From: an uncultured Dehalococcoidia bacterium
Lineage (GTDB): Bacteria; Chloroflexota; Dehalococcoidia; Lucifugimonadales; Australimonadaceae
DNA length: 46,908 bases
Reading direction: 5' to 3'
Assembly (NCBI GenBank): GCA_937901475.1
Contig: CALGTL010000018.1
Span: 1-46,908, forward strand
Each line of letters starts with the position of its first letter. Positions within the stretch are counted from its first letter, which is position 1. Made by a program: the position numbers and the translations under genes. Under the pieces are notes generated by a model. The model saw nothing but the letters and a program-made list of their open reading frames with translations. It did not search any database and was not told the origin of the DNA. Of this stretch, positions 1,841 through 35,540 are shown piece after piece.

Positions 1841-2569
1841 ATGCCCTCGATAACCGTGACGGTGCAAACCCATATCGCAACCATCACACTCGATAGCGAA
1901 TCTCAGCATAACGTGCTCGATGCAGCGCTCCGAGCAGAGTTCGCGTTGGCGATCCAAAAGGTCGACGATGATCACGACATACGTATAGTCGTAGTGACGG
2001 GGGCCAACGGGGTGTTCGCCAGGGGCATCGATCATATGCCTGGTTCACTCGGTCCCCAAGGCGCCGCGAGCGCTATCGCGTCGCTGCGCAAGCCAACGGT
2101 TGCGTGGATAGATGGTGAATGCTTGGATATGGGTTTAGAGCTTGCGCTCGCGTGCGACGTCCGTTTCGCCAGTAACACGTCGACGTTCGGTCTATGCGGG
2201 GTGAAGCAGGGGGCTCTGCCATGGGATGGAGGTACACAGCGCTTATCCCGTGCAGTGGGCCGAGGGCAGGCACTACGTTTGCTCTTGACCGGTGAGGTGA
2301 TCTTGGCTGACGAGGCGTTGCGCATAAAACTCATTGAGGGGGTTGGCGAATCGCTCATCGTAGCCGATTGGATTGCTCGGGCGGCGGCTGGTGCGCCGAT
2401 AGCAGCCGCGTATGCTAAGGAGGCGACGATGGCTGCTGGTGACTTGCCGCTCGCGCAGGGGCTGCGTCTAGAGGCCGACCTGAGCGTGCTTCTCCAATCA
2501 ACCGCTGACCGCGCGGAAGGCTTGGAGGCGTTCACCGCAAAGCGGAAGCGCCAGTTCGAGGGCCGATGA
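1841..2569 (+). CDS. Enoyl-CoA hydratase/isomerase (crotonase) family protein, one catalytic Glu missing
   Basis: The 242-residue protein has the crotonase fold, whose members hydrate, isomerise or cleave acyl-CoA thioesters in the cytosol. The oxyanion-hole and CoA region is seen as AWIDGECLDMGLELALACDVRFA (about 88-110, quoted in part) and GGTQRL follows near 130. Of the two glutamates used by true hydratases, the first is kept (E100), while the position of the second holds glycine (G120, in FGLCGVKQG where the family has FGxPE). It may therefore be an isomerase, another crotonase activity, or an inactive partner. The ATG has GGGAGGA six bases upstream. Its stop overlaps the start of a second crotonase (ATGA), so the two are translationally coupled, with an acyl-CoA ligase next. 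Confidence 0.85.
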   Translation: MPSITVTVQTHIATITLDSESQHNVLDAALRAEFALAIQKVDDDHDIRIVVVTGANGVFARGIDHMPGSLGPQGAASAIASLRKPTVAWIDGECLDMGLELALACDVRFASNTSTFGLCGVKQGALPWDGGTQRLSRAVGRGQALRLLLTGEVILADEALRIKLIEGVGESLIVADWIARAAAGAPIAAAYAKEATMAAGDLPLAQGLRLEADLSVLLQSTADRAEGLEAFTAKRKRQFEGR

Positions 2570-3303
2570 GTACCGACTCGATAGATATCGAAGAGCCTAC
2601 AGTTAAATACGAGAGGCGCGATGGCGGTATAGCCGTGCTGACTCTGAATCGGCCCGGCGCCCTAAATGCTTTCAATGTTCAGATGCGCGACGAGGTGTTC
2701 GAGGCTCTCATGGCTGTGCGTGACGACGATGAGGTACGCGGGGTTTTGGTGCGCGGCGCGGGCGATCGTGCGTTCTGCGCGGGCGCGGACCTGAGCGAAT
2801 TCGGTAGCACTCCATCGCAGGCGATTGCACGGTCAATTCGGTGGGAGCGAGACGTTTGGGGCCTTTGGCTCTCTCTCAACAAACCAATTGTTGCTGCAAT
2901 TCAAGGGTATTGTCTCGGTTCAGGCATCGAGATAGCGGCTGCTTGCGATGTGCGCATCGCTGCAGACACGGCAGTGTTCGGGATGCCTGAGGTTGGTCTG
3001 GGTTTCATCCCAGCAGCGGGCGGCACTCAATTACTGCCTCAGCTACTCGGTCAGGGCCGTACGCTCGAACTTCTACTGACGGGCCATCGGTTCACTGCGA
3101 AAGAAGCTTTGCACTATGGCCTGGTGTCGGAGGTTGTAAGTCACGGTATGCTTGAGGGGAGAGCCATGGATGCTCTGCGCACCATACTCCAGGCGCCCAG
3201 TAGCGCACTCGCTGCCGCCAAGCGAGTAGTGTCGGAAGGACTTGATCTACCATTGGCTGAGGCCATGGCATTGGAGCGCAGGGTCGGAACTACACTCGCT
3301 TAG
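2566..3303 (+). CDS. Enoyl-CoA hydratase (crotonase family), catalytic residues intact
   Basis: This 245-residue crotonase probably hydrates an enoyl-CoA in degradation of a fatty, branched or aromatic acid; the substrate cannot be read from sequence. The oxyanion motif DRAFCAGADLSEF lies at about 67-79. Both catalytic glutamates are present: E122 in GSGIEIAAACD and E142 in FGMPEVGLGFIP. GGTQLLPQLLG follows. The ATG overlaps the stop of the preceding crotonase by four bases. The downstream ligase starts 38 bases later. A ligase followed by hydratase activity is the normal opening of a beta-oxidation-type route, which the three-gene operon fits. Confidence 0.9.
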   Translation: MSTDSIDIEEPTVKYERRDGGIAVLTLNRPGALNAFNVQMRDEVFEALMAVRDDDEVRGVLVRGAGDRAFCAGADLSEFGSTPSQAIARSIRWERDVWGLWLSLNKPIVAAIQGYCLGSGIEIAAACDVRIAADTAVFGMPEVGLGFIPAAGGTQLLPQLLGQGRTLELLLTGHRFTAKEALHYGLVSEVVSHGMLEGRAMDALRTILQAPSSALAAAKRVVSEGLDLPLAEAMALERRVGTTLA

Positions 3304-3341
3304 CTTTTATTATCCGGCTGACGCCTCGGAGGCTCCACGAC

Positions 3342-4907
3342 TTGCATACCCATGACATCCTAAGCATCGCTTCTGCCATCGTGCCTGAGCGCACAGCTAT
3401 CACGTTCGACGATACCGTCATGACGTTCGCAGAATTGGCCTCGCGTGCCAATCGATTGGCGAATGCGCTCGCCGCGAGGGGTGTTCAGTCGGGTGACCGC
3501 GTTGCCGTAATCGACGTCAATACGCCTCGTCACCTAGAACTCTACTTCGCGGCAGCGCGGCTCGACGCTATCTATGTGCCATTGAATTTCAGGGATCGTG
3601 CCGAGGAGCTTCGATTTCCACTGGAACACACAGCGCCCAAAGTGGTGATGGTGGGCCCGCGTTACGTGCCTCTGATTGAAGAGTTAAGGCCTAACCTCGT
3701 TTCGACGAATCTCCTGCTGGTGTCGGAAGGCCCAGCTCCAGAAGGCTGGATTACCTACAACGATATTCTGGAATCGGGAGATGAGGATGAGTTACGGTTC
3801 CCTGAGGCTGATTCAGAGAGCACGGCCGTACTATTGTTCACGGCAGGCACAACAGGTAGGCCGAAAGCCGTGATGCTGAGCCATTTGTCGTTCACGGAGT
3901 TCATGTTGACCAACGTGGAACCACCTGATCCGGACTTGGAAGAGCGCACGATATTGAGCTTGCCGATGCACCACATCGCAGGCCTCCAAGCAGCATTGGC
4001 TTCGGTTTTCGGCGGACGATCTATCGTTATGCAGCGTCAGTTCGAAGCCGCCGATTGGATGAATCTAATCGCGCACCACAAGGTGAGTCGGGCGTTAATG
4101 GTTCCGACGATGCTGAAACAAGTGTTGGACCATGCAGAGTTCGAAAGTCACGATCTAAATAGCATCCGGGTAATTACATACGGTGGTGCGTCAATGCCGC
4201 CGAACTTGATAGAACGAGCGATATCCGCTCTGCCTGGAGTTCAGTTCATCAACGCTTTTGGTCAGACGGAGACTGGGTCCACTATTGCTATGGTGCCACC
4301 CGAAGATCACGTCCTAGAGGGCGTTCCGGAGTTAGTAGCGAAGCGCCGGAAGCATCTATCGAGCATTGGTAAGCCACTTGATGGTGTTGAGGTGCGTATT
4401 GTCGACGAGAACGGCATGGACGCAGGGCTAGACACGACAGGCGAAATCGTGGCGCGCGGCCCCAGGCTGATGAAGGGATACTGGGGGCAGGCGGACGCGA
4501 CGGCGGAGACAATCCGTAATGGTTGGCTGTACACCGGCGACCTAGGCTATATCGATGACGATGGCTACGTGTACCTCGAAGGACGCGCCAAAGACTTCAT
4601 CAAACGTGGTGGGGAGATGGTGGCACCGGAGGAGGTCGAGAACGTGATCCATGCCTACCATGGAGTCTCGGAGTGTGCCGTAATCGGATTGCCTGATGAG
4701 ATGTGGGGCGAACGCGTGGTAGCGGTGGTGGTCGCCGAGCCAGGAGCGACAATCACGGAGGAGTCAGTGAAGGCCCTTTGCCATGAGCATCTAGCAGGAT
4801 TCAAGCGACCCCAACAAGTGATTGTAGTAGACGTGCTTCCGAGAAATGCACTGGGGAAGGTGCTCAAGCGGGAGCTGAGGGATCGCTATCGGGCAACCGG
4901 AAGCTAG
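3342..4907 (+). CDS. AMP-forming acyl-CoA synthetase (acyl-CoA ligase)
   Basis: The 521-residue enzyme belongs to the ANL superfamily, which activates carboxylic acids to acyl-adenylates and then CoA thioesters. Visible motifs are the phosphate loop LLFTAGTTGRPKAVMLSH (about 164-181), INAFGQTETG, the hinge region GWLYTGDLGYIDDDGY, and the C-terminal RNALGK with the adenylation lysine (K506). The TTG start at 3342 has GGAGG nine bases upstream and places the family's N-terminal region correctly; the next ATG would remove conserved sequence. It closes the operon begun by the two crotonases. Its stop overlaps that of convergent nuoA within CTAG. Substrate is unknown; a medium-chain or aryl acid is possible. 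Confidence 0.9.
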   Translation: MHTHDILSIASAIVPERTAITFDDTVMTFAELASRANRLANALAARGVQSGDRVAVIDVNTPRHLELYFAAARLDAIYVPLNFRDRAEELRFPLEHTAPKVVMVGPRYVPLIEELRPNLVSTNLLLVSEGPAPEGWITYNDILESGDEDELRFPEADSESTAVLLFTAGTTGRPKAVMLSHLSFTEFMLTNVEPPDPDLEERTILSLPMHHIAGLQAALASVFGGRSIVMQRQFEAADWMNLIAHHKVSRALMVPTMLKQVLDHAEFESHDLNSIRVITYGGASMPPNLIERAISALPGVQFINAFGQTETGSTIAMVPPEDHVLEGVPELVAKRRKHLSSIGKPLDGVEVRIVDENGMDAGLDTTGEIVARGPRLMKGYWGQADATAETIRNGWLYTGDLGYIDDDGYVYLEGRAKDFIKRGGEMVAPEEVENVIHAYHGVSECAVIGLPDEMWGERVVAVVVAEPGATITEESVKALCHEHLAGFKRPQQVIVVDVLPRNALGKVLKRELRDRYRATGS

Positions 4908-28061: not shown

Positions 28062-29840
28062 CTACCTGGCAGCCTGGCGACCATCCATGCGGGCTATCCG
28101 GATATCGATTACGGCGGCCTGGCCGGCATGAACACGCTCTAGCCCGCGCCTGATGGCATCTTCAATTTCAGCTGGGTCTTCGACTGTTTCTCCGTACCCG
28201 CGACATGCCTGAACGAGAACCGCGTAGTCGGGTGATGGGTCGATAGACGTTCCGAGGAAGTCGTTGTTGGTCTTACCCACCCCACCCGGGTAAGCGCGGG
28301 CCCAGCTGTTGACTGTGGCCATGTGCTGAGAGTTGTTGTAGATGATGGTCAAAAACGGAGTGTTGTACTTCTCCGCTGCCCAGAACGCTGACGTTGGACG
28401 AGCGAACACGAACGAGCCATCGCCCTCTAGCGCAATCACATCGCGGTCAGGATTAGCCAGTTTCGCGCCAACCGAGGCACCGAGCCCCCAGCCCAGGCTC
28501 GATCCACCCGCCGTGAATACGGAGCCTGGCACTTTACGGTCCGACATCGCAATCCACGGCCAACCACCGGACATCCCTTCATTCATGACAATGGCATCTT
28601 CCGGAATAACCTGCTCTAGGCAGTAGGCAGCCCAGAGTGGGTGAATCGGGCGGTCTTCCTTGTGCAGGATGGCTGCTTGCTTGAGGCGTGCACGCTCCTT
28701 GATGGTGTTGGCCGTATAGGCCTCGACCCGCTTAGACGCGCGGGCTTTATCGTCACTACTCAGCCGCGCTTTCAGAGCTACAAGTAGCGCAGGTAGGGCC
28801 ACTTTCGACGACGCGTGCATCATTAAATCAGCGGGGTAAGACCACATGGGGATAGAGTCTTTGGTCGGGTCAATGTCTATCCAGGCGACCTTCGCAGCAG
28901 GTTCCAGCGTTTCTTGGTCAGGTATCCATGGGTTATCGTGATCAATGACAAGGATGACATCGGCCTCTTTAACGCTGGGGGCATCACACGTCTGGGCGTT
29001 GAGCGGGTGCTGAGTCGGGAAATTAAGGCGTGTGCCGATGGCCCCCTGCACCGGCGCACCGGTGATTTCAGCTATCTCCGTGAGAACAGGCACTGTCTCT
29101 TTGTAGCGGCCCGAAGAGCCCGTGATGATCAGTGGTTTCTCTGCGCCAGCAAGCCAGTCTGCCAGCAATGTAATCGAGCCAGGATCGGCTGCTGGTGCGA
29201 TAGGTTGACCATGACGCCCAGCAGACGGCAATTGCAATTCAGTCATCTCTTGGATGAGTAGCTCGCGAGGCAGCGTCATGTATACGGGGCCAGCGGGCTC
29301 TGCTTGAGCGACCTGGTGTGCCTTCTGCATCACCCAATTGAGGCTCTCCAAGCTGCGAAGCTCGTAGTCCCATTTTGTGAAGTTACGCACAATTCCACCT
29401 TGATCAGACTGCTCTTGAATCCAATGGATGTTCATGTCTTTTCCACCAGCGGTGCCACCGCCAATCGTGGACGGCGCACGCCCGGCAAAAACCATAATGG
29501 CCGCATGGTCACGCTGCGCATCGTGCCAGGCACCGCCGATATTGATAGTGCCAGCATCCACGTGTACAAGCACCGCTTGCGCGCGCCCGGTGCTCTGGTA
29601 ATAGCCATGGGCCGCAAACATCGCCGTCGTCTCATCAATGCACAGAATGACCTTAGGAACGGTGCGCTCCTGTTCCATCATGCGTTGAGTGGCTTCTAGG
29701 ATGGGGAACACGTCGGTGCCTGAATTGAGGAAAATGTACTCAACACCGTTGTTGTTGAGCATTTCAACGAACGCTTCAGCTCCATCTTCGACTGGAATCG
29801 ATAGTAACCTGCGCTCTGTTCTCACGTTCATGATTGCCAT
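28062..29840 (-). CDS. Thiamine pyrophosphate enzyme, acetolactate synthase-like
   Basis: The 592-residue cytosolic protein has the three-domain layout of TPP-dependent decarboxylases and carboligases. The N-terminal Pyr domain has the catalytic Glu (E70 in LCIDETTAMFAAHGYY). A central domain is near 200-340. The PP domain has the TPP-Mg motif GDGS at 473-476 with NN at 502-503, exactly the GDG-x26-NN form. It lacks the features of a true biosynthetic IlvB in context (no ilvN or ilvC). The ATG at 29840 has GGAG seven bases upstream. It is the last gene of a cassette with two SDRs and two DinB proteins. A 2-oxoacid decarboxylase or carboligase of a catabolic route is inferred; the substrate is unknown. 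Confidence 0.85.
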   Translation of the reverse strand: MAIMNVRTERRLLSIPVEDGAEAFVEMLNNNGVEYIFLNSGTDVFPILEATQRMMEQERTVPKVILCIDETTAMFAAHGYYQSTGRAQAVLVHVDAGTINIGGAWHDAQRDHAAIMVFAGRAPSTIGGGTAGGKDMNIHWIQEQSDQGGIVRNFTKWDYELRSLESLNWVMQKAHQVAQAEPAGPVYMTLPRELLIQEMTELQLPSAGRHGQPIAPAADPGSITLLADWLAGAEKPLIITGSSGRYKETVPVLTEIAEITGAPVQGAIGTRLNFPTQHPLNAQTCDAPSVKEADVILVIDHDNPWIPDQETLEPAAKVAWIDIDPTKDSIPMWSYPADLMMHASSKVALPALLVALKARLSSDDKARASKRVEAYTANTIKERARLKQAAILHKEDRPIHPLWAAYCLEQVIPEDAIVMNEGMSGGWPWIAMSDRKVPGSVFTAGGSSLGWGLGASVGAKLANPDRDVIALEGDGSFVFARPTSAFWAAEKYNTPFLTIIYNNSQHMATVNSWARAYPGGVGKTNNDFLGTSIDPSPDYAVLVQACRGYGETVEDPAEIEDAIRRGLERVHAGQAAVIDIRIARMDGRQAAR

Positions 29841-29957
29841 CTTTAGTCTCCCTTTGCTTCAGTTCCGGGTTGACTACCTACTGTTCCCTATCGGTCGGGT
29901 CGGTAGATTCGTGCGAGGTGCGTCATAAAGTGGGGGCAAGGATTGCCGGACCATGGC

Positions 29958-30030
29958 GCGTTCGTGAGCGGACAGACGCTCCCTGCTACTCGCCGCCGGT
30001 GACAGGGAGCGTCTGTCCGCTCACGAACGC
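29958..30030. repeat. Perfect 28-bp inverted repeat around an SDR stop codon
   Basis: The arm 29958-29985 is the exact reverse complement of 30003-30030, with a 17-base loop. On the minus strand the first arm encodes the last residues of the SDR before the loop, the loop ends with the stop codon, and the second arm lies immediately after it. No T-run follows, so it is not a typical terminator. Confidence 0.95.
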
Positions 30031-30771
30031 TGCTGCGTCGGATGCAAAAAATACGGCGACTCCGCCGATATCACTCGCATTACCCACACGACCTACAGGT
30101 ATGCGATCTAGGGCCGTTGCCATTTCAGGGCGCACCGTCCCCGCTGGACGCGGAGTGTCTATGGTGCCAGGTGCTATGCAATTAACGCGCACCTCCGGGC
30201 CCCATTGTGCTGCCATCCGAGCAGTGAGCGCATGCACGGCAGCTTTCGCTGCTCCGTAGGTGGCGAGATCGCCCGGCCCTTTCTGCACGTGTAGGCCCGC
30301 ACTCGACCCCGTGTTGATGATTGCACCAGCGCCAATCTTCTTCATGTACGGAACCACGGCCTTGGCACAAAGGAATGCTGTCTTCACATTTGCATCAAAC
30401 GCTGTCATGAAATCCTGCTCATCGAGTTCCAAAAGCGGGGCGCGGCTGAACTGAGGCATCTCCGGGTTGCGGCTATAGGTGCCACCGGCAACGTTGACGA
30501 GCACATCAATTCGGCCAAAACGATCCAGCGTTTGCTCAACCATCGTATCTACGTCGGCAGCCTTCGCGACGTTAGCGGCTACGCCGAGCGTTTGCGCACC
30601 AAGTGCCTCAATCTCAGCCACGGCGGGCGCAATGCTCTCTGCGGGCACACCCACAATGACGATGTTTGCGCCAACCTCGGCGAATGCACGCGCGCAGCCC
30701 ATCCCGATGCCGCCACTGCCTCCTGTGATAATGACGGTGCGGCCTTCCAGTGAGAATCTTGAGAAGTCCAT
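29986..30771 (-). CDS. Short-chain dehydrogenase/reductase (SDR)
   Basis: The 261-residue NAD(P)-dependent oxidoreductase has the cofactor loop TGGSGGIG (16-23), NVAGG, the active-site Ser in NTGSSAG and the YxxxK pair in ATYGAAKAAVHAL, then VNCIAPGTIDTPR and a C-terminal GQTLPVTGGE. It is about 40% alike by eye to the next gene upstream, so both probably arose by duplication and may act on related alcohols or ketones. The gap to the upstream SDR is 30 bases. Its last codons lie in a perfect 28-bp inverted repeat. Confidence 0.9.
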   Translation of the reverse strand: MDFSRFSLEGRTVIITGGSGGIGMGCARAFAEVGANIVIVGVPAESIAPAVAEIEALGAQTLGVAANVAKAADVDTMVEQTLDRFGRIDVLVNVAGGTYSRNPEMPQFSRAPLLELDEQDFMTAFDANVKTAFLCAKAVVPYMKKIGAGAIINTGSSAGLHVQKGPGDLATYGAAKAAVHALTARMAAQWGPEVRVNCIAPGTIDTPRPAGTVRPEMATALDRIPVGRVGNASDIGGVAVFFASDAAAFVSGQTLPVTGGE

Positions 30772-30801
30772 GGTTACTCCTTCTTAGTAGTCGAGTTCAT
30801 C

Positions 30802-31602
30802 CTAGTTTCCGCCATTGAGATCTAGGTATGAAGCATTGAAGAACGCGCCTGCATCGGACGCGATATAGATAGCTGCTGCCGCAATGTCCTCTGGCGTACC
30901 AAAGCGACCAATCTGGATCTCTGCCAGCGATTTAGCACGTCGCTCAGGCGTCTCCGTTCGCACGCGCCGCGGCGTGAGGAAATGGCCAGCATTAATGCAG
31001 TTCACACGGACGTTAGGCTCCCACTCTTTCGCCATATTGCGCGTCAGGTGCATGACGGCGGCCTTGGACATGTTGTAAACGCTCATCACTGGTTCAGGCG
31101 GGCGGTAGTCGCGCGCGCCTATGGATGACATGTTGATGACCACTCCCTTGCCACGCTCTAGCATGTGCGGGACGATTTCGTGACAGCAAACGAATACGGA
31201 CGCAACGTTGATGTTGAATGCCTCCATGAAATCGGCCTTTTCCAGATCTAGCAATCGACCCCGGCTGAACGTGGGGCCCTGGGAGCCACCAACAACGTTC
31301 ATCAGAATATCGATCTTGCCGAACCGCTCCAGCGCAGCATCACGCATACGTGCAACGGATTCGATGTCAGTAACGTCAGTAGAGAAGCCAAGCACCTGGC
31401 CCCCCTTGGTCTCAATCTCCGCGACAACACTGTCAATCTTCTCCTGAGTTCTCGCGGCAATCACGACACTGGCACCGGCGTCGACGAAGCCATGAGCAAT
31501 CATGCGTCCGATACCATCACTGCCGCCTGTGACGACCGCAACTCGCCCTTTGAGTGAAAAGAGGTCTAATGAAAATTGCGGGACTTCGTTCTGCGTTGTC
31601 AT
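30802..31602 (-). CDS. Short-chain dehydrogenase/reductase (SDR)
   Basis: The 266-residue oxidoreductase has TGGSDGIG (25-32), NVVGGSQGP, the active-site Ser in NMSSIGA, the catalytic YNMSKAAV, VNCINAGHFLTPRR and the terminal SYLDLNGGN. The adenine-loop residues AARTQEK near 50 suggest NADP may be preferred, but this is tentative. It is the third gene of the minus-strand cassette; a DinB-family gene ends 13 bases upstream and the second SDR follows. Substrate is unknown. Confidence 0.9.
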   Translation of the reverse strand: MTTQNEVPQFSLDLFSLKGRVAVVTGGSDGIGRMIAHGFVDAGASVVIAARTQEKIDSVVAEIETKGGQVLGFSTDVTDIESVARMRDAALERFGKIDILMNVVGGSQGPTFSRGRLLDLEKADFMEAFNINVASVFVCCHEIVPHMLERGKGVVINMSSIGARDYRPPEPVMSVYNMSKAAVMHLTRNMAKEWEPNVRVNCINAGHFLTPRRVRTETPERRAKSLAEIQIGRFGTPEDIAAAAIYIASDAGAFFNASYLDLNGGN

Positions 31603-31615
31603 TTATATCCTCCCT

Positions 31616-32131
31616 CTAATACCAGCCGTGCCCACGAATCAATCCACGTAGGTACGCGATTTGCCCAACATGCTGAATGTTGTCATTGAGGATTACCGCG
31701 AGCCGCGATGTAATCGGTTGCGCAGGTCTACCAGGAATAGTGGACTGCACCAAGCGCCCCATGTCTTCTTCAGGAAGGGCCTCAACAATCTCTAGGCTCT
31801 TCTCAGCGACCGCGTCAAAGTAGCCCACCAAAGTCTCATAATCCTTCGGGTCAAATAGATGAACTTCCTCTGGTGCGAATCGAGGGACTTCTCCATCCAT
31901 ACCGAAACGGGCTCCCCAGTCACCGGTTTCCCAGATCGGTGTATCCCCAACGATGCTCGCAGAGATGTTGTCCCGGGTGCGGGTCAGGTGCCACACCAAC
32001 CAGCCGATAGGGTTGCTCTCTTGGCCGGCCGGTTGTTTCTTCAATTCCTCAGTACTCAGATCGTCCAGCGCCCGATGCAGGTCGGCGTCAGATCGGCGAA
32101 TAGCATCAGCGTAAAGAGTTGTCGTGCTCAT
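31616..32131 (-). CDS. DinB-family protein (DUF664-like), first of a pair with its paralogue
   Basis: The 171-residue protein is a four-helix-bundle DinB/YfiT-like protein. Such proteins bind one metal through three histidines, and some are thiol-dependent S-transferases or isomerases. Visible candidates are H48 in IGWLVWHLTRTRD and H154 in NDNIQHVGQIAYLRG. It resembles the adjacent 175-residue protein along its whole length. It lies 13 bases upstream of an SDR in the same transcript, so a role in the cassette's pathway, not DNA damage, is likely. Confidence 0.85.
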   Translation of the reverse strand: MSTTTLYADAIRRSDADLHRALDDLSTEELKKQPAGQESNPIGWLVWHLTRTRDNISASIVGDTPIWETGDWGARFGMDGEVPRFAPEEVHLFDPKDYETLVGYFDAVAEKSLEIVEALPEEDMGRLVQSTIPGRPAQPITSRLAVILNDNIQHVGQIAYLRGLIRGHGWY

Positions 32132-32179
32132 GAAGCTCCTATCGTTCTTTTCCTAAGCGTATCTCGGCCCCTGGCGCCT

Positions 32180-32707
32180 CTAAACACTCATCCACCCGAA
32201 GCCTTCGAGGAGGCCGCGCGCGTACATCACTTGCCCCGCATGTTGCGTGTTGTCAGACATGATGCTCACTAAACGAACGCCTACGGTTGGCAACGGGCTG
32301 TATTGTGGCTCATTAATCTCAGCTTCGAGGTCCTCTGGGGACACCGTTGCAAGGTACCGCGTAGATTGTTCGAGCACGGCATCTGCATACCCGAGTGAGA
32401 GGGCACCGGAATCGACTTTGAGCGCCGCCACCTGCTCTAGCGTGTGGCCGGTGCCGGTCTCATGCTCGTCCTTAGCCATGCCGAACTTCTCATGCCAGCC
32501 ATCGGAAACCCACAATTGTGAAGTCTTAAGAAGATCCGAGATGTGGTGATCTTGAACACGACAAAGGTGCCATGCAAGCCAGGCCATCGAATTTGATTCA
32601 GGCGCCGGCTGCTTATTGAGCAGATCAACAGGGACTCCTTCTATCGCCCGGTGCAAGATGCGGTTCACCCTGCCCAACGAATCCGCTACCACCTCTGCTC
32701 CATTCAT
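32180..32707 (-). CDS. DinB-family protein, first gene of the cassette
   Basis: The 175-residue paralogue has the same framework: H47 in MAWLAWHLCRVQDHHISDLL and H156 in SDNTQHAGQVMYARGLLEGFGW. The extra HH after the first motif is not in its neighbour. It starts the five-gene minus-strand cassette, 48 bases before the second DinB gene. It is divergent from ybeY; no clear promoter could be assigned in the 130-bp gap. A metal-dependent transferase or isomerase using a low-molecular-weight thiol is possible from family knowledge. Confidence 0.85.
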   Translation of the reverse strand: MNGAEVVADSLGRVNRILHRAIEGVPVDLLNKQPAPESNSMAWLAWHLCRVQDHHISDLLKTSQLWVSDGWHEKFGMAKDEHETGTGHTLEQVAALKVDSGALSLGYADAVLEQSTRYLATVSPEDLEAEINEPQYSPLPTVGVRLVSIMSDNTQHAGQVMYARGLLEGFGWMSV

Positions 32708-32837
32708 GCCTGTCTCCTGTTCGCATGACCCTATGTTTCACGCGCAGCTTCTAATCTAGGGGCGGTATCGCACCATTCCTGCCAGCCGGCGCCATGATAG
32801 CGCACCCCCTCATGCTATGATGCCGGAAGGTGGCTCT

Positions 32838-33371
32838 ATGCTTACAGGCCCGCAGAAACGCTCAATCGATATTCGCTTGTTCCCTGCTTACCGGGGCTTG
32901 GTAAAGACGCCCTTCGTAAGGCGTGCAGCCACGGCTGCGCTGAAAGTCGCTTACCCTCAAGGAGACCGAAGCGTGAGCATTGTGATTGCTGACGACAAAA
33001 CACTACATGATCTGAACTTACGCTACCGAGGCTTTGATGAGCCCACGGATGTTCTATCATTCGGTGACGAAAGCGATGCGTCTTTAGCTGAAGCAAACGC
33101 TAATGAAGTCCCTCCATTCCCTAGTATGCCTGGCGAATCTCTATCGCTTGGAGAGATTGTGCTGTCGTACCCCTTGGCTGTACGCCAGGCGAGCGAGCAC
33201 AATGTTCCGGTTGATGAAGAGGTCGCGTTGCTTATCGTCCACGGCGTCCTGCACTTATTAGGGCATGACCATGCCAACCCGGACGAGGAGGCAATCATGA
33301 AGGCGTTTGAGACTCAAGCCCTGTCTGTCCTTTTCCCGAAGCAGACCGGATCCGCCGCAGGAGGCGCGTAG
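32838..33371 (+). CDS. ybeY: Endoribonuclease YbeY (rRNA maturation factor)
   Basis: YbeY is a zinc-dependent RNase needed for 16S rRNA 3'-end processing and ribosome quality control. The 177-residue protein has the signature HGVLHLLGHDH with the three zinc histidines, and the family's LNLRYRGFDEPTDVLSF and SLGEIVLSYP. It is slightly longer than usual because of an Ala/Asn/Glu-rich insert before FPSMPGESLS. The ATG at 32838 has GGAAGG seven bases upstream; the ATG pair at 32817 has none. dnaX begins three bases after its stop. Confidence 0.92.
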   Translation: MLTGPQKRSIDIRLFPAYRGLVKTPFVRRAATAALKVAYPQGDRSVSIVIADDKTLHDLNLRYRGFDEPTDVLSFGDESDASLAEANANEVPPFPSMPGESLSLGEIVLSYPLAVRQASEHNVPVDEEVALLIVHGVLHLLGHDHANPDEEAIMKAFETQALSVLFPKQTGSAAGGA

Positions 33372-33374
33372 TAG

Positions 33375-35540
33375 ATGAGTGGCGAGGTGCTTTACCGCAA
33401 GTGGCGACCCCCACGCTTCGCCGACATCGTCGGCCAAGGGCCTATAACGCAAACACTTACCCAGGCAATCGCCACGGGGCGGACTGCGCACGCGTACCTT
33501 CTTTGCGGTCCACGAGGCACCGGTAAGACTTCTACTGCGCGCGTATTAGCAAAAGCTCTTAACTGTACGATGCGCCCGCCCGCATTCGGCGACCCTTGCG
33601 GGAGTTGCGATGCCTGTCGTGCTATCGAGCAAGGGAATTATGTGGATCTCATTGAGATCGACGCGGCGAGTAATCGGGGCATTGACGAAATGCGGGACCT
33701 GCGGGAGAAGGTACGGTTTTTGCCCACGCAGGGTAAGTACAAGGTCTACATCATTGATGAAGCCCACGCGCTAACTAATGACGCCTTCAATGCATTCCTT
33801 AAAACGTTAGAAGAGCCGCCGCCACATAGTGTATTCGTCCTCGCTACGACCGAACCGCACCGCCTGCCTGCCACCATTATCTCGAGGTGCCAGAGGTACG
33901 ACTTCCGCCGTATCTCCCCAGCCGACGTGGCCGAGCGGCTTACAGAAATCGCTACATCAGAAAACGTAGACGTTTCACCAGAAGTGCTGCGCGTGGTATC
34001 CAGAGCTGCCAGTGGCAGCCTTCGCGACGCGACCAACATGCTAGACCAGCTCATCACGTCATTCGGAGCGAAAATCAATATCGAGCAGGTGCGAGAACTA
34101 CTTGGGACTGGTGGCGAAGAACGCGCCATCGCTTTGGTTAAACACTTGCTGAGCAGCAACACCGCTGCAGCGTTGGAGTTGATTAACACTGTCGCTTCAG
34201 AAGGTCAGGACCTTCGTCCTCTCCATCGTATGACCGTTGATTTCCTGCGCGCCGCTCTCCTTATGAAGTCTGGGGTGAAGGACTCGCTCGAGCTTGCTAA
34301 AGAAGCGCAAACAGAACTGTCATTCGCAGCGACGAACACCACTATGGAGCACCTCCTACGAGCCTTGCGCCTGTTTGGCCAAGTGTCGCTCAAATTCGAT
34401 CAACCCTCACCTTTGCCATTAGAGCTCGCGACCGTTGAATTGAGCCTCGCCCCGCAGCCTTTGGTCGTAGCACCAGCAGTCCCTGCGGCTAAGGCCTCAA
34501 CTGCAGCAACACCCGCTTATCGACAGCCAGTGCAGAAGTCCGCACAGCAACCGGCATATGTGCCACAACAGCAACCGCGCCCGCCGCAAGCACCTGTTCA
34601 GCAACCGCAGCAAGCGTATGCCAATAGACCTGCTGAACAGGCCTCGGCTAGCCCAGTAATAGATGCCAATGCTCCGCTCGAGGAACGAGTAGGAGCGGCC
34701 TGGCCGGGCATCCTTCGAGCACTAGGTCGCGTACCGCGCCGCCGTTTCGACGTGGCCGCCCTGCTTCGTAGCTCCACCAAACGACAGGTTGTTGGAACAG
34801 AATTGGTTGTTCGGTTCACGCATACCTCCAACAGCGAGCGGCTTCAAGACGAGCTCGAAGACCCTCGGTGCAGGCTTGAAGTTGAGCGGATTCTTGAAGA
34901 ATCCCTAGGCGGGAAATACACGCTAAAAGTGGAGACCGACAGCAGCCGCAGCACTGCCAACCTCAACGCCGACCAGCCAGGGCACCTTGTCCGTGCTGCC
35001 ATGAACCTAGGGGGGCAGGTCATTCAAAAGGCAGTTCAGTCACCTGAGGCTCCTACACCCACAGTACCTATTGCTGAAACATCCATTCCCGCGGTGAAGG
35101 CTACTGTCGCAGAAGAAGCTACTCCAAATGTCGACGCAGTACCCGTTGGCAACGAAGCACCTATCGAGCCCAGCCTTGAAGCTGCATCCGCTATCGATGC
35201 CGCTACTGCCGAACTTGAAGGTGAAGAGGATTCTGTCGTGTCACCGTTTGAAGCGCAGGCAATGACACACGCCGCTCCACTTGGGGTCGAAACACCGGTG
35301 GCACAAGAGGCTACGACCATCGTCGACGAAGTGCCGGTGGATCCTATGGTCGCTCCCGAAGCAGCGGTTTCCGTAAGCAGCGAAATACCTGCCATGGCCC
35401 GGAATCTCTTCAACGAGATGCAGGAAATACCAAGCCTGCCTTTGGAGAATGAGAGCGAGAGCGAGTCGGTGCCGGCATTACCCAGTAACCAGGTCCCTGC
35501 GGATTATTTTCCCGGGCCAGATGAAGAGGAGATAACCTGA
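33375..35540 (+). CDS. dnaX: DNA polymerase III subunits gamma/tau
   Basis: DnaX is the ATP-driven motor of the clamp loader. The 721-residue protein has the Walker A GPRGTGKT (45-52), four zinc cysteines (C64 and CGSCDAC at 75-81), IIDEAHALTNDAFNAFLKTLEEPPP, and the sensor SRC in IISRCQRYDF. After about 360 a Gln/Pro-rich linker leads to a conserved C-terminal domain and an acidic tail. No A-rich slippery site for a shortened gamma form is evident. It is the second gene of ybeY-dnaX-ybaB-recR, and its stop overlaps the start of ybaB by one base (TGATG). Confidence 0.95.
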   Translation: MSGEVLYRKWRPPRFADIVGQGPITQTLTQAIATGRTAHAYLLCGPRGTGKTSTARVLAKALNCTMRPPAFGDPCGSCDACRAIEQGNYVDLIEIDAASNRGIDEMRDLREKVRFLPTQGKYKVYIIDEAHALTNDAFNAFLKTLEEPPPHSVFVLATTEPHRLPATIISRCQRYDFRRISPADVAERLTEIATSENVDVSPEVLRVVSRAASGSLRDATNMLDQLITSFGAKINIEQVRELLGTGGEERAIALVKHLLSSNTAAALELINTVASEGQDLRPLHRMTVDFLRAALLMKSGVKDSLELAKEAQTELSFAATNTTMEHLLRALRLFGQVSLKFDQPSPLPLELATVELSLAPQPLVVAPAVPAAKASTAATPAYRQPVQKSAQQPAYVPQQQPRPPQAPVQQPQQAYANRPAEQASASPVIDANAPLEERVGAAWPGILRALGRVPRRRFDVAALLRSSTKRQVVGTELVVRFTHTSNSERLQDELEDPRCRLEVERILEESLGGKYTLKVETDSSRSTANLNADQPGHLVRAAMNLGGQVIQKAVQSPEAPTPTVPIAETSIPAVKATVAEEATPNVDAVPVGNEAPIEPSLEAASAIDAATAELEGEEDSVVSPFEAQAMTHAAPLGVETPVAQEATTIVDEVPVDPMVAPEAAVSVSSEIPAMARNLFNEMQEIPSLPLENESESESVPALPSNQVPADYFPGPDEEEIT

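Follow-up and report, generated by a model that had tools for sequence, protein, structure and literature searches.

The window analysed here is a 46,908-nucleotide stretch of DNA from an uncultured Dehalococcoidia bacterium. At positions 28062-32707 it carries five intact open reading frames, all on the minus strand, separated in transcription order by gaps of 48, 13, 30 and 145 bases. The features of the locus and of its upstream flank are as follows.

32180..32707, minus strand: DinB2, a DinB/STL-superfamily, MST-like metalloprotein of 175 aa (PF12867, PF04978); first gene of the core operon, with orthologues across the family
31616..32131, minus strand: DinB1, a second DinB/MST-like protein of 171 aa (PF12867, 2e-16); a paralogue of DinB2, absent from some genera
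30802..31602, minus strand: SDR1, a classical short-chain dehydrogenase of 266 aa (PF13561/PF00106); the best-conserved core member
29986..30771, minus strand: SDR2, a second SDR of 261 aa that shares 43-44% identity with SDR1; genus g4 has lost it, and in genome G006 it is relocated
29958..30030, no strand assigned: a perfect 28+28-bp inverted repeat (loop of 17 nt) that covers the stop codon of SDR2 and lies between core operon and ThDP gene
28062..29840, minus strand: a ThDP-dependent enzyme of 592 aa, of the NF006203/PRK08327 group (PF02776, PF00205, PF02775)
32817..35540, plus strand: ybeY and dnaX, divergent; a flank outside the operon that forms a conserved upstream border in the family

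This inventory confirms the initial annotation of the locus, which had described five same-strand genes with gaps of 13-145 bases, and its family labels agree with our scans (DinB_2/MST twice, adh_short twice, and TPP_enzyme N, M and C). Family annotation of the five-gene set matched no known pathway. All five orthologue pairs shared with a sister species (a Chloroflexi MAG, isolate casp40-mb.130, here L009, the same contig as G007) are under purifying selection, with dN/dS values of 0.03-0.12 that are only approximate, synonymous sites being close to saturation. No consensus promoter was found upstream of DinB2 or of the ThDP gene on their own strand, nor an intrinsic terminator immediately 3' of SDR2; the Rfam scan of the window returned zero matches, and the DinB-SDR unit includes no regulator gene. 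Elsewhere in the window, a pair of enoyl-CoA hydratase-like genes with an acyl-CoA synthetase gene behind them (1841-4907, plus strand) likely forms an acyl-CoA catabolic unit.

Both DinB proteins resemble M. tuberculosis MST (Rv0443-type; PDB 8f5v, 8fx9) in fold and length. Against the 8f5v structure, phmmer gave E values of 8e-30 for DinB2 and 6e-18 for DinB1, and the predicted model of DinB1 (pLDDT 92) had 8f5v, which contains mycothiol and Zn, as its best structural match (TM 0.81). Six residues (H48, D150, H154, N40, G156 and Q157 in DinB1 numbering) are invariant in 25 of 25 DinB sequences, and H48, D150 and H154 align with 8f5v. In MST the metal ligands are two His and one Asp, and Asn, Asp, Gly and Gln contact mycothiol (review, PMC10950700). 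The bacillithiol transferases BstA-H, which belong to the same DinB/STL superfamily, instead have three conserved metal-binding His (PMC5815605), one of which is replaced by Asp in all 25 of our DinB sequences. The invariant residues fit the His-Asp-His metal site and the mycothiol contacts of MST, rather than the three-His Bst site, and the earlier proposal that the DinBs bind metal is borne out by a residue signature that points to a site of the thiol-transferase type. Unlike the MST equivalog itself (NCBIfam NF047843, cut-off 170 bits), DinB2 falls short of the threshold by 0.2 bits (169.8) and DinB1 by 54 bits (116.3); also unlike MST, these DinBs are tandem paralogues within an SDR operon. 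DinB relatives are frequent in the order (at E 1e-25 they turn up in 96 of the 250 genomes), and tandem DinB arrays are found as well, with four genes in G013 and three in G145, a member of another family (L145:2064-4220; L154:5887-7949).

Both SDRs match the adh_short profile and, in translation, carry the Ser-Tyr-xxx-Lys set (YNMSK in SDR1 and YGAAK in SDR2, with Ser upstream). The nearest solved structures for each are 7-alpha-hydroxysteroid dehydrogenases, and SDR homology is a poor predictor of substrate. Between the window and the sister species, identity is 95% for SDR1, 90% for the ThDP enzyme and 67% for SDR2 (29986-30771 versus L009:4481-5269). The divergence of SDR2 is distributed over the entire gene, which suggests gene replacement or fast evolution.

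To place the locus in its lineage, 16 genomes (seven genera) of the family and 250 genomes of the order were searched, and the loci were compared by tblastn. In the order-wide search at E 1e-65, SDR1 orthologues were restricted to the family, where they occur in 13 genomes of four genera, and in all 13 SDR1 is the next gene downstream of a DinB gene (in G004 across a contig break). Four genomes (G001, G002, G003, G005) share the order DinB2-DinB1-SDR1-SDR2-recO, and G004 has the identical order split over two contigs. G014 and G015 have DinB2-SDR1-SDR2-recO, G009, G010 and G011 have DinB-DinB2-DinB1-SDR1-recO, and the genus of the window has DinB2-DinB1-SDR1-SDR2 followed by the ThDP gene. The four-gene arrangement is thus full in two genera and reduced in two further ones. 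It mostly lies between the divergent ybeY-dnaX pair, common to all loci whose contig extends that far, and recO, which follows the operon in most family genomes, often after only 2-42 bases. Neither the window's genus nor G006 retains this recO linkage. G006 is a single-contig genome in which DinB2 and SDR1, with a 4-base overlap, lie away from both ybeY and recO, and SDR2 occupies a third site.

Because core gene order is retained between genera at about 49-75% protein identity, the four-gene association goes far beyond chance, and the DinB1-SDR1 gap of 0-2 bases in two genera is typical of an operon. We regard DinB2-DinB1-SDR1-SDR2 as a conserved operon inherited within the family, whose co-transcription we infer. 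DinB1 and DinB2 form separate orthologous clades, as do SDR1 and SDR2, and their sequences mark each pair as old paralogues that are inherited separately. The proposal that the pairs might be heterodimers finds no support in an obligate form, since each paired paralogue is dispensable in some genomes: DinB1 is missing beside DinB2-SDR1 in G006, G014 and G015, and SDR2 is missing in G009-G011 where SDR1 is present.

The ThDP enzyme stands apart. The protein (in most searches minus its first Met, 28062-29837) matches NF006203 over its full length (residues 17-583) at 612.8 bits, above the curated cut-off of 456, and falls well short of the acetolactate synthase large subunit model TIGR00118 (157.8 versus 538 bits). 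It retains the catalytic Glu, a benzoylformate-decarboxylase-like His and the GDG...NN motif. The PRK08327/NF006203 family is itself without an assigned reaction, and its relatives elsewhere occupy other neighbourhoods. Across family and order, a close relative (90% identity, dN/dS 0.04) occurs only in the sister species, and the gene lies at the core locus only in the window's genus. In G012 and G141, homologues with 64% identity occupy short contigs and have neither a DinB nor an SDR gene beside them, while relatives with 45-50% identity elsewhere in the order have other neighbours and no core. Plasmid-borne homologues from Thermomicrobium and Aneurinibacillus were considered and set aside, their neighbourhoods being unrelated.

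The window's species and its sister differ in what separates SDR2 from the ThDP gene. In the window, the right arm of the inverted repeat is a reverse copy of SDR2 coding sequence, and the surrounding RNA (29930-30050) folds at -78.9 kcal/mol (z -10). Lacking a T-run, the hairpin does not conform to a textbook terminator. It could act as a terminator of some other type or stabilise the mRNA, or it could stem from a fold-back duplication or from an error of assembly. The sister species lacks the repeat and has instead a PF04909 amidohydrolase gene (L009:5282-6328; solved relatives of its product include DitZ and PtmU3) between SDR2 and the ThDP gene, with radical-SAM and methyltransferase genes after the latter. 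As the amidohydrolase gene fills the interval with gaps of only 12 and 40 bases, the core and the ThDP gene may well share a transcript in that species. In the window, about 120 bases lie beyond the repeat, the last 49 of which align with the sister's ThDP leader, including the last codon of the amidohydrolase. No coding remnant of the amidohydrolase was found in the 145-base gap (106 of 300 shuffles score equally well), so that the gene may have been lost in the window's species or gained in its sister. That the window is partly mis-assembled here, and that the true order could include the amidohydrolase, is a reading to which we give little credence. The perfect repeat does sit precisely at the junction, the amidohydrolase is missing, and the contrast in identity between SDR2 and SDR1 arises within a draft genome of 208 contigs; yet the window's genome has no amidohydrolase orthologue anywhere (best match 35%), the SDR2 divergence is gene-wide rather than local, and the ThDP leader is homologous to that of the sister.

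Taken together, the locus very probably comprises two side-by-side units, a four-gene core inherited within the family and, following it in the window's genus alone, a ThDP gene. The initial annotation had proposed a single cassette in which DinB and SDR steps provide the ThDP enzyme with a keto acid. Conservation of the neighbourhood in relatives, on which that proposal hinged, holds for the core and fails for the ThDP gene. In its favour, the ThDP gene directly follows SDR2 in one genome of the genus and SDR2 plus the amidohydrolase in the other, and the enzyme is well conserved between the two. However, wherever the core occurs in other genera it does so without this ThDP gene at the locus, the order holds ThDP relatives without the core, and in the window the 145-base gap with its large hairpin sets the ThDP gene apart. 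We thus consider a single five-gene pathway improbable. The supply of keto acid by the SDRs likewise goes unsupported, as most family genomes have the SDRs but no ThDP orthologue at the locus. The ThDP gene is best taken as a genus-level neighbour, and its product probably works independently of the core, on a 2-oxo acid or ketol.

If the core DinBs are thiol transferases, the question arises of which thiol they use. The 16 family genomes were searched for MshC, BshC, GCS2 and EgtD. Unlike the setting of MST, no family genome has an MshC match above cut-off (0/16), and the sub-cut-off matches in 14 of the 16 are at the level of CysRS in control genomes. BshC is also absent (0/16, with positive controls recovered), which again separates these DinBs from the Bst transferases, and so is a GCS2-type ligase (0/16). 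EgtD, for ergothioneine, occurs in eight of the 16 genomes, the sister species included, and is absent from the window's genome (97% complete) and from G006, G009, G014 and G015, all of which have the core or the DinB2-SDR1 pair. The core therefore tracks none of the thiols tested and, as no known thiol pathway was detected in the family, thiol use by the DinBs is itself hypothetical.

For the core, we tentatively propose an SDR redox step coupled to metal-dependent thiol transfer by the DinBs, with reaction and thiol use inferred, and reaction and substrate drawn from distant homology. The substrate of the SDRs would be a small compound, perhaps alicyclic or aromatic, in which they oxidise (or reduce) a hydroxyl or carbonyl group. 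A divalent metal bound by the DinBs would activate a low-molecular-weight thiol, which these proteins might then join to the activated compound or release from it. Because either copy can be lost, the two SDRs, like the two DinBs, would probably serve different stereoisomers or different substrates, and the initial annotation may be right about two parallel substrates. The explanation as a whole, two-unit anatomy plus mechanism, we put at a probability of about 0.4.

A described parallel is the Lig beta-aryl-ether pathway, where the enantioselective SDRs LigD/L are followed by the thiol transferases LigE/F/G (PMC4609964, PMC4858972). The likeness, of paired SDRs and paired thiol-transferase-like enzymes, is one of architecture only, an analogy and not membership: the core transferases would have the DinB fold rather than the GST fold that uses glutathione, and the GCS2-type ligase was not found. 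That the core might be a glutathione-free counterpart of Lig, employing an unnoticed Chloroflexota thiol in the degradation or detoxification of recalcitrant organic matter, is a speculation by analogy with a slim chance of being right. Within the phylum, SAR202 Chloroflexota show an SDR expansion, with many members resembling hydroxysteroid dehydrogenases (PMC5395668); our SDRs share the phylum and that resemblance, and DinB goes unmentioned in that study.

Two other explanations of the core are live rivals to redox-coupled thiol transfer. The DinBs could conjugate a thiol to reactive compounds while the SDRs reduce reactive carbonyls, a defence against electrophiles and stress that protects the cell and its DNA. 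Bacillithiol transferases of the DinB superfamily are indeed active on a model electrophile, although no growth defect was found in B. subtilis mutants lacking them under stressors (PMC5815605). The run of the operon into recO in most family genomes would suit protection of DNA, but neither G006 nor the window's genus keeps that link and the unit encodes no regulator, and we judge such a role unlikely overall. Alternatively, the DinB and SDR genes could be functionally unrelated and merely held together by slow rearrangement between dnaX and recO, a view favoured by the conservation of the neighbouring recR-ybaB-dnaX-ybeY block and of recO. Such passive synteny seems to us rather improbable, for the overlapping DinB2-SDR1 pair of G006 persists away from ybeY and recO, and SDR1 lies behind a DinB gene in every one of its 13 genomes (in G004 as judged from contig ends).

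In support of the initial annotation, which had called the gene set undescribed, a literature search found neither such a cassette nor such a DinB cluster in Chloroflexi, and found no work joining Chloroflexota with both thiol names (mycothiol and bacillithiol), most subscription papers lying outside its scope. The parts themselves are known families; what is new is the coupling of DinB and SDR genes, present without a detected thiol pathway. The unit for testing is thereby corrected to four genes rather than five. MST-type transferases are understood with mycothiol, whereas here they occur in tandem, in a dehydrogenase operon, in a family without detected mycothiol or bacillithiol synthesis, so that the identity of the thiol, or any thiol use, becomes a direct and testable question in this uncultured lineage.
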